Positions 6,372 to 8,466 of a DNA stretch of 64,000 bases are shown here, one piece after another. Every line of letters starts with the position of its first letter. Positions within the stretch are counted from its first letter, which is position 1. Under the pieces are notes generated by a model. It saw only the letters and a list, made by a program, of their open reading frames with translations, searched no databases and had not been told where the DNA came from. A program made the translations under genes and the position numbers. Origin of the DNA: Alkalibacterium putridalgicola (GTDB lineage: Bacteria; Bacillota; Bacilli; Lactobacillales; Carnobacteriaceae_A); NCBI RefSeq assembly GCF_900109825.1, contig NZ_FOBL01000006.1, positions 1 through 64,000 of the forward strand, given 5' to 3'.

Positions 6372-7061
6372 TTAGTCGTCTTCATACCGGTCCTTTTCTT
6401 TTTCTCTATAGTCCATCATTTTTCTGCTGAAGAGTTCGCCATTTGACGGTGGTGTATAAGTGATCGCATTGGCTCCCGCTTCGATCGTTTCCAGGATGCT
6501 TTCCTCAGTCGGTCCGCCTGTCGCGATGATGGGCAGGTCCGGGTATTTCTCTCTCAACTCTCTCACGATCGTGCTCGTCCTTCCCGCCCCAGATACATTG
6601 ATGATGTCCACACCAGCTTTCAGGCGTTTATCTATCGATGTATATTCCGATACCACCGTTAAGATGATGGGGATATCGATCACTTCATTGATTTTTTCAA
6701 TGGTTGCGATCGGCGTAGGGGCATTGACGACCACCGCCTTACATCCATGTGCTTCTGCAAACAGAGCCATATTAGCCGACCGGACACCTTGGGTCTTGCC
6801 GCCAGCGATGCCGGCCAGGACAGGAATCGTTGAGACCGATGTAATGGCTTCAAGAATCGCCGGATGTGGAGTAAAGGGGTAGACAGCCATGATCGCATCG
6901 GCATCATTGTTCATGATCAGCGCGATATCTGTGGTAAACATAAATGCTTTGAAACGTTTTCCGTTGATCAGTATGCCGCTGGCTTTTCTGATGACTGCAG
7001 GGACTTCAACGTATCCATTATATAGATCAGATTTTACTGACGGGTATTTTCTTTTTTCCAT
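6372..7061 (-). CDS. Uncharacterised TIM-barrel protein
   Basis: A 229-residue protein with the alternating strand/helix pattern of a (beta/alpha)8 barrel. The segments DIALIMNNDADAIMAVYPF, IPVLAGIAGGKTQ, CKAVVVNAP, VDIINVSGAG and IIATGGPTEESI lie at expected strand ends. The GG and GAN motifs near residues 183-200 resemble the phosphate-binding site of phosphate-ligand barrels. I recognise the fold but not the reaction; automatic annotation of similar proteins is often just hydrolase. AGAGG lies 7 nt before the ATG. It sits 25 bp after a glucosaminidase gene and 22 bp before a PBP gene, so a role in cell-wall sugar metabolism is possible but only inferred. Confidence 0.65.
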   Translation of the reverse strand: MEKRKYPSVKSDLYNGYVEVPAVIRKASGILINGKRFKAFMFTTDIALIMNNDADAIMAVYPFTPHPAILEAITSVSTIPVLAGIAGGKTQGVRSANMALFAEAHGCKAVVVNAPTPIATIEKINEVIDIPIILTVVSEYTSIDKRLKAGVDIINVSGAGRTSTIVRELREKYPDLPIIATGGPTEESILETIEAGANAITYTPPSNGELFSRKMMDYREKEKDRYEDD

Positions 7062-7086
7062 ATCTTAGCCTCTTTATCTTAAAAAT

Positions 7087-7671
7087 TTATTTATCAAAAC
7101 GATCTAACTCATAGAGCTCTATGATCTCGATTATTTTTTCAGGGTATGTCGGATCTGTGGCATAACCAGCTGAATATAGTGCCTGAGCGGCTTCCTGATA
7201 GCTGGATGCCTCCTGTACGCCTCTGTACAATTCAGGATTCCATTCTGTTCCGCCATTGATCAGATCGGCATAGTCAGTGACCGAAGCCTCTAGTGACGGA
7301 TAACTTCTAAAGGACGCATGGATCTCTTTCCATTTCTCTTCATATTCTAACGTGGCATATTTACGGCCATCAGAACCGCCTTTTATACCAAAATAATTAT
7401 TTTCCTGTTGGGACAAACTGCTCTTTCCCCAGTTTGATTCCAGAATCGCCTGCGCAATCGTGACACTTGGTCTGATTCCATGGGAGGCTTGTAAGGGAAC
7501 GGCATGACTGGCGACTTCATTTATAAACGCATCTTTTGTCCAGTCTTTCTGGTTTGCCGGCTCATTTTCCACTGCCTGACTGATCACTGCCAAAGCACCT
7601 GTAAAGGTAAGCACCAGGATAGCGAACAGCTTAAAGATGGGGAAAGATGTCTTTCTTTTTTTATAACTCAG
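7087..7671 (-). CDS. Secreted glucosaminidase (peptidoglycan hydrolase), likely non-AUG start
   Basis: A GH73-type N-acetylglucosaminidase. The catalytic domain covers about residues 45-190 (SVTIAQAILESNWGKSSLS holds the probable catalytic Glu; NNYFGIKG and FRSYPSLEASVTDYADL follow) and no wall-binding repeats are present. The nearest GTG (7614) cuts the signal peptide in half and has no ribosome binding site. Extending the frame upstream gives 19 more residues beginning LSYKKRKTSFPIF, making a full signal peptide (KKRK, then hydrophobic core to ALAVISQA). The only codon well placed after AGGAGG (7679-7684) is CTG at 7671, 7 nt away; ATT at 7674 is 4 nt away. An ATG at 7678 is in another frame and stops after five codons. 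Length is 194 aa with CTG. First gene of an operon with the TIM-barrel and PBP genes. Confidence 0.8.
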   Translation of the reverse strand: MSYKKRKTSFPIFKLFAILVLTFTGALAVISQAVENEPANQKDWTKDAFINEVASHAVPLQASHGIRPSVTIAQAILESNWGKSSLSQQENNYFGIKGGSDGRKYATLEYEEKWKEIHASFRSYPSLEASVTDYADLINGGTEWNPELYRGVQEASSYQEAAQALYSAGYATDPTYPEKIIEIIELYELDRFDK

Positions 7672-7877
7672 AATTCATCCTCCTATTATGTTACTTAATC
7701 GTTTATACTTGAGTTACACTGCTTTTTCTATTTGTGTTGACTATCTCATGTTTACAGTCTAACGTATTTTTATTTTATCATACTCAGGTGGATGTAAATA
7801 GACTATAATAAAAATATATGTTTTTGATATAATCTCATTCGTTACCACGATTCTAACTATAGGAAAGAAGGCCTTTT

Positions 7878-8466
7878 ATGAGAATAATCAATTGGGGAAT
7901 CATAGGGTCAGGTAAGATCGCTGACCAGTTTGCTTCTCAGTTTAAAGATGATCAGGCAAAGCTTACCGGTATCGCTTCACAGACGCTTCAAAAAGCTTTT
8001 GAATTCTCGACTCGCTTTAATATAAAAAAAGCTTATGGCACTTATGAAGAACTGGCTTTTGACCCAGAGATAGACATACTCTACATGGCGACGCCGAATC
8101 ACACTCTTTATAAAAACATTCTTATGGCATTGAATGCCGGCAAACATGCCTTTTACGAAAATTCGATTGCTTTGAATAGTCAGCAGCTCAATGAGGTGCT
8201 GACCCTAGCCCGAAAAAAGCATCTGCTTGCAGTAGATGCCTTGACGATCCACCACATGCCTCTTTATAACGAACTGAAGCAAGAAATCGAAACAGGGCAG
8301 GACTATGACCGTTCAATAACACTTGTTTATGAAATTAACACCCTCACGCATACGCTCTTGTTTGAGAATGATTTCACCTCACTCTCTCACCCCGGATGTC
8401 AATAAACTGATCGACTGGGCGGCCAAAGAGTGGGCTATTTCTCGACTAAATCCCACCAACAAATAA
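7878..8466 (+). pseudogene. Gfo/Idh/MocA oxidoreductase, truncated remnant
   Basis: The frame 7878-8405 encodes 175 residues of an NAD(P)-dependent sugar dehydrogenase: Rossmann start NWGIIGSGKIADQFA, IDILYMATPNH, then GKHAFYENSIALN where the family has the EKP-type motif (here EN). Family members have about 320-330 residues, so nearly half is missing. Just before the stop, another frame continues from about 8380 with PHSLTPDVNKLIDWAAKEW and ends at 8466. An internal deletion or frameshift is therefore likely. ATG with GGAAAGAAGG upstream looks intact, so it is probably still transcribed. The truncated product lacks most of the substrate domain and is unlikely to be active. Confidence 0.7.

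Follow-up and report, generated by a model that had tools for sequence, protein, structure and literature searches.

A conserved CTG codon as the probable start of a GH73 hydrolase in Alkalibacterium and in a second bacterial family

In a window of 64,000 nucleotides (the whole stretch of DNA that was analysed, from Alkalibacterium putridalgicola), a hydrolase gene is, with a probability that we put at roughly 85%, translated from the CTG at 7671 by ordinary Shine-Dalgarno-guided initiation, with fMet at CUG, to give a membrane-anchored or secreted GH73 enzyme. On this reading, the CTG would be a true start codon under purifying selection, neither an internal leucine codon nor an error. Its position, its conservation, the lack of any alternative that yields the whole N-terminus, and its recurrence in a second family can be read from the sequences themselves. 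An earlier note on this DNA had offered a natural non-AUG start as one option, which is supported by the presence of the same CTG in six Alkalibacterium species and in 18/25 genomes of a genus from another family.

Results

The Hydrolase and Its Start Region

The gene occupies positions 7087..7671 on the minus strand and comprises 194 codons from the CTG plus a stop codon at 7089-7087. Its product is predicted to be a glucosaminidase of the GH73 family: the Pfam Glucosaminidase profile (PF01832) matched with an E value of 2.8e-37 and 128.6 bits, against a curated cut-off of 30.2, over profile positions 2-123 of 123, and the catalytic domain spanned residues 55-189. The closest solved structures were 3fi7 (Lmo1076) and 5t1q (SAOUHSC_02979). 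AILESNWG of the hydrolase aligned to AALESNWG of 3fi7, and the Glu of the ILESNWG segment, which we take to be the catalytic residue, was conserved. Directly 3' of the gene, a 229-codon ORF (6372-7061, minus strand) had no Pfam match at E 0.001. Divergent to the hydrolase, on the plus strand (7878-8405), a Gfo/Idh/MocA oxidoreductase ORF (PF01408) ended after 175 codons; proteins of this family are usually longer, and gene decay may be the cause. A promoter scan scored no consensus promoter within 180 bases of the hydrolase on its upstream side, and the four promoter-like matches in 7000-7900 were within chance expectation (mean 3.0, sd 1.6 in shuffles).

On the minus strand, the start region runs in the order AGGAGG, A, TGA, ATT, CTG, AGT TAT AAA AAA AGA AAG. 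The Shine-Dalgarno AGGAGG (7679..7684), with a duplex energy of -10.2 kcal/mol, is spaced 7 nt ahead of the CTG (7669..7671) and 4 nt ahead of the ATT (7674-7672), both distances agreeing with the earlier note. An in-frame TGA (7675..7677) closes the upstream frame. As that note had also observed, the frame is open for 19 codons above its first GTG; no ATG, GTG, or TTG occurs in frame between the upstream TGA and this GTG (7614-7612), which lies 19 codons downstream of the CTG and within the hydrophobic core. The CUG is thus found at the usual Shine-Dalgarno distance, and no standard start gives the whole N-terminus. The segment consisting of a basic N-terminus and a hydrophobic core (7579..7671, minus strand), a signal anchor or signal peptide, is complete only from the CTG, from which the net charge is +5, followed by a 17-residue core with a mean Kyte-Doolittle value of 2.41. 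From the GTG, the basic part is absent and the mean falls to 1.03. The segment had been described as a normal signal peptide, of which the basic start and the hydrophobic core stand; however, the segment may remain uncleaved, as a signal anchor, and not be removed as a signal peptide, because the residues past the core in the six CTG species (ISQAVENE, ISQAVDNE, IGQTIEKD, ISQSIENE, LSQTVEEE, and LSQEFQED) keep no obvious signal-peptidase site by eye.

If initiation took place at the downstream GTG 7614, the protein would be shorter and would lack the basic region; this is very improbable, and GTG 7614 was discarded as the principal start. In its favor, no standard start precedes it in frame, and the residue numbers published for the Listeria orthologue, in the accessible text of their source, fit annotation from a comparably placed GTG. 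Against this, no Shine-Dalgarno match of at least 4 bases was listed for GTG 7614, the truncated core would be only partial and would lack its basic region, and the fixed CTG and AGGAGG would be left unexplained. Nor was the position kept, the first standard start falling at codon 19, 28, 18, 28, 11, and 14 in the six CTG species. The in-frame TTG of two of these, G007 (codon 11) and G008 (codon 14), would retain the core and one net positive charge. Elsewhere in the hydrolase ORF of the window, the one other start with a match of at least 5 bases was a coding-internal TTG with a weak match.

To place the CTG within its genome, we sampled 379,933 bases (the window plus 18 stretches, about 15% of the genome) containing 328 ORFs that ran for 100 codons or more from stop to stop. 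In 236 of these ORFs, some start within the first 150 codons had a Shine-Dalgarno match of 5 bases or more; in the other 92, none did. CTG was the best-matched start in 15/236. The hydrolase CTG is exceptional within this sampled 15% or so of the genome, since an in-frame ATG, GTG, or TTG lay upstream in all but 2 of the 15, namely the hydrolase and one other ORF, which had a standard start 11 codons downstream and two further starts matched over 5 bases or more.

Starts in Alkalibacterium and Its Family

The hydrolase gene was found in all 12 Alkalibacterium genomes searched. With starts assigned from Shine-Dalgarno placement, CTG was the start codon in six (G000, G004, G001, G003, G007, and G008), with the same Shine-Dalgarno ahead of it; the start of G008 aligned to another column, and its correspondence rests on the spacing to AGGAGG. 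At the corresponding place, TTG was found in four genomes (G006, G011, G002, and G010) and GTG in two (G005 and G009), and ATG in none of the 12. In genus g9 of the same family, TTG was found in 3/5 genomes and GTG in 2/5, so that by Shine-Dalgarno placement the start was non-ATG in 12/12 Alkalibacterium and 5/5 g9 genomes. The earlier note had proposed comparing 5' ends in relatives and had named an ordinary start there as the outcome that would count against it. The comparison gave a divided answer: six Alkalibacterium genomes have CTG, but six others have an ordinary TTG or GTG at that place. In our view, the latter confirm where the start lies and do not refute the CTG. A separate scan of genome contigs returned three loci, from A. 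subtropicum, Lacticigenium naphthae, and, as a weak match, a Saprospiraceae MAG; the hydrolase gene of A. subtropicum DSM 23664 was 89% identical and carried the same CTG.

These relatives bear on several other readings of the start region. The suggestion that a sequence error, or a broken gene, masks an ordinary ATG could not have been dismissed from a single genome by itself, but it was refuted by relatives with the same CTG (6/12 Alkalibacterium genomes and 18 in the second genus). The reading frame is preserved, and many of the codon differences among species are synonymous; the chance of an error is close to negligible. Initiation at the adjoining ATT, 4 nt after AGGAGG, had been raised as an alternative to CTG, and ATT is a known rare start (infC and pcnB). 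However, the spacing is short, and the codon preceding the CTG is variable, being ATT, ATT, GTT, ATT, ATC, and AAT in the six CTG Alkalibacterium species and GTA, GCA, CAT, CAG, AAT, CTT, or AAA in the CTG genomes of the second genus. The species with GTT and AAT refute ATT as the common mechanism; a conserved AUU start of the infC type was not found, and we consider this reading extremely improbable.

We also scrutinized the five-codon ORF in another frame (ATG AAT TCT GAG TTA TAA; 7661..7678, minus strand) that overlaps the CTG start. As had been noted, its ATG (7678-7676) lies directly on the Shine-Dalgarno, with nothing between it and AGGAGG. Through coupling or a frameshift, a short overlapping ORF of this kind could deliver ribosomes to the hydrolase frame. 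In favor of this, the ATG opens five codons in both G000 and G004, and in the second genus 17/18 of the CTG genomes show, by eye, a GTG that precedes the CTG by ten bases and lies in the corresponding frame. Yet the ATG is absent from four of the six CTG Alkalibacterium species, so that the short overlapping ORF is not conserved among these relatives, and no spacer separates it from AGGAGG where it does occur. We give such a device little chance; the five-codon ORF probably has no role, and the proposal that it tunes expression was rejected.

No stronger Shine-Dalgarno that would offset the CTG was found in the genus, duplex energies ranging from -10.2 to -11.9 kcal/mol in CTG species versus -8.8 to -12.2 kcal/mol in TTG/GTG congeners. 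In a check for an unusual initiator tRNA, pattern GGGNTCATAACCC was found in 10/12 Alkalibacterium genomes, including G000; it was missing from G001 and G004, perhaps as tRNA clusters break assemblies. Applied to four GGGNTCATAACCC loci, ARAGORN identified tRNA-Met genes in L041 (G000), L037, and L043, and no tRNA in L044 (G008).

Conservation of the Codon and of the Residue

If the CTG encoded an internal leucine, its codon would be expected to vary as other leucine codons do. Among the six CTG Alkalibacterium species, nine other alignment columns were all-Leu, and a single codon was kept in none of them. Across 80 columns with an invariant residue (Met and Trp left out), a single codon was kept in six. 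For the closest five CTG species, a single codon was kept in just one of 11 all-Leu columns, that of the start, and in 13/97 invariant columns, the start included. Where two of the six shared a residue, they encoded it with different codons in a quarter (G000/G004) to three fifths of cases. Apart from one single column, the only conserved stretch within the 45 bases preceding the CTG was formed by the six AGGAGG columns. Likewise, in the 18 genomes of the second genus that start with CTG, a single codon was found only at the start out of 16 all-Leu columns (0/15 others), and 4/112 invariant columns kept one codon, again counting the start (G065 left out). In both genera, then, the CUG codon is conserved and not merely leucine, and we read the CTG and AGGAGG conserved in Alkalibacterium as having the pattern of a start codon with its Shine-Dalgarno.

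A Second Genus, Very Probably Listeria

The orthologue was also read in 25 genomes of g15, a genus of another family: CTG was the start in 18/25 and TTG in 6/25, and the remaining genome, G065, has the broken frame described below. The start read AAAGGCGTGA (two codons, CTG AA[AG] TAT) in 15 of the 18 CTG genomes. In most of the Listeria-like genomes, the Shine-Dalgarno match was no longer than AAAGG. On a tree of the g15 hydrolase built without the first residue, the CTG and TTG states needed two changes. The genus is very probably Listeria, and the orthologue lmo1215, because a peptide of Lmo1215 occurs in g15 genomes and the make-up of the family of g15, as we understand it, fits Listeria. 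The peptide, GKWIEINANFR, is reported for Lmo1215 of L. monocytogenes 10403S and numbered 97-107 in the accessible part of the source (PMC11782612). It was found in three g15 genomes (G073, G074, and G062), among 14/25 loci that matched a looser pattern.

In G073, the Gly of the peptide is residue 97 from an internal GTG and residue 124 from the CTG. At the other 13 matched loci, no candidate start, with up to six candidates listed for each, gave 97. As the published numbering, so far as the available text gives it, fits the GTG and not the CTG, it suggests that public Listeria Lmo1215 is annotated from a GTG inside the hydrophobic core, with the anchor clipped, much as the earlier note met it in the window. 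The supernatant peptide is weak evidence of Lmo1215 export, because the same list, in the text available, also includes SufC and SpoVG, which are normally cytoplasmic proteins. Both are listed there together with the Lmo1215 peptide, detected in culture supernatant after caspase-3 treatment (PMC11782612, accessible text).

Some further features were observed in single g15 genomes. In G045 and G066 (L139 and L140), the GTG ten bases before the CTG opens a 40-codon overlapping ORF in another frame, across the core region (by eye). In G065 (L158), the hydrolase frame breaks beside a run of A shortly after the start region, which may be an error or a real change. In G073 (L142), a second glucosaminidase-like frame follows the hydrolase in tandem, and two neighboring matches were also present in G077.

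Occurrence in the Order and History of the Start

The orthologue was read in 136 genomes of the order (50 + 21 + 65). Any standard start giving at least three K/R residues before the core was counted, with or without a Shine-Dalgarno. By this rule, a standard start was present in 110/136 genomes, only a CTG in 24/136, and neither in 2/136 (G016, with an ATG and a His-rich N-terminus, and G065), in a non-random set drawn among the matches listed from searches that matched 59/60 (E <= 0.001), 25/25, and at least 203/246 (E <= 1e-30) genomes, from which less similar orthologues are missing. The 24 CTG-only genomes were the 6 Alkalibacterium and 18 Listeria-like genomes, and no other genus among the 136 contributed.

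The history of the start within Alkalibacterium was taken from a tree of PrfA and a second protein, presumably of the YrdC/Sua5 type, rather than from the hydrolase tree. This tree contained 26 of the 27 genomes of the family; G022, with no match to PrfA or the YrdC/Sua5-type protein, was left out. Five CTG species fell in one clade (100/100). G008 was the deepest Alkalibacterium branch (97/93 for G008 versus the rest), with TTG/GTG species between, and the four start states needed at least 7 changes, with 19/26 rows coded. Because G008 is separated in this way from the other five, these limited data suggest that CTG either arose twice in Alkalibacterium or arose once with later returns. In the hydrolase gene tree (19 genomes), whose alignment held the start residue, the six TTG/GTG species were grouped (93/96) and the branching of the six CTG species was not resolved, which on similarly few data would count against two origins.

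Discussion

Under the reading that we prefer, AGGAGG would guide the ribosome to the CUG, where fMet would be inserted, and the CUG would act as an ordinary but weak initiation site. Poor initiation at CUG would keep the yield of hydrolase low, and low yield may be what selection keeps. Since too much wall hydrolase would do harm, the CUG start is perhaps maintained by selection to hold this lytic enzyme low. The earlier suggestion that such a start limits a lytic enzyme fits, because 12/12 Alkalibacterium and 5/5 g9 genomes use a non-ATG start here. Several observations are points against this explanation: the Shine-Dalgarno shows no compensation in the genus and is no longer than AAAGG in most Listeria-like genomes, in G007 and G008 a TTG that would leave one positive charge precedes the core, and the promoter scan found nothing above chance.

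The purpose, though not the reality, of the CTG start is disputed by the possibility that it is nearly neutral, a persisting drift from UUG to CUG with no role in dosage. TTG and CTG differ by one transition, weak starts are usual for the hydrolase in the genus, and a single change may suffice there if the hydrolase tree, with its group of six TTG/GTG species, is followed. However, CUG is rarely reached, only 1/2,468 ancestral UUG starts having switched to it in the accessible text of a published reconstruction (PMC5622118), and the CTG persists across species that differ in a quarter to three fifths of their identical-residue codons. We regard near-neutrality as unlikely, yet as an alternative that deserves real weight.

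In the parts of the literature available, CUG is described as by far the least used of the four NUG starts in bacteria, accounting for 0.024% of bacterial starts with 0.86% of the efficiency of AUG (PMC11497404), and reconstructed changes to CUG numbered 2/61,358 for AUG, 1/5,080 for GUG, and 1/2,468 for UUG starts (PMC5622118). Natural CUG starts are a known rare kind, of which the hydrolase is a further case, unusual in its conservation and in its recurrence in one gene. No published report of a conserved CTG start for the hydrolase was found in a literature search that mostly excluded subscription journals and supplements and whose matches were examined in part.

A broader proposal is that CUG starts can be positively maintained in bacteria: in Alkalibacterium (once or twice) and independently in the Listeria lineage, selection would have placed the hydrolase on a start disfavored by initiation factors and held it there. 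Wall cutting would then depend on the condition of the initiation machinery, for example on the ratio of IF3 to 30S, as well as on promoter activity. We hold this to be speculative and doubtful. That one orthologous gene has retained CUG across many species of two families, while most of its other codons turn over, speaks for selection acting on the start codon itself, and a natural case of such conservation offers a handle on why bacteria avoid CUG. There is also a practical consequence, in that start callers restricted to ATG, GTG, and TTG clip the basic N-terminus off the hydrolase, as seemingly happened with Lmo1215.

Weak starts have been discussed as setting protein dose, for example in the rsbW variants of Listeria monocytogenes; in the accessible text (PMC13068326), these and similar start variants are strain, lineage, or laboratory variants, whereas the hydrolase CTG is common to many species. 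Compared with the GH73 glucosaminidases of Lactobacillales (PF01832, including Listeria Lmo1215), the hydrolase has the same whole-profile catalytic domain and the same basic N-terminus and core, but its CTG-only start was shared by only 24 of the 136 genomes read, against a standard start in 110. The genes infC, which encodes IF3, and pcnB have AUU starts. The hydrolase resembles them in having a conserved non-canonical start and a product that may be needed at a low level; it differs in using CUG, in having no known feedback of the product on initiation, and in that its adjoining ATT is not conserved.
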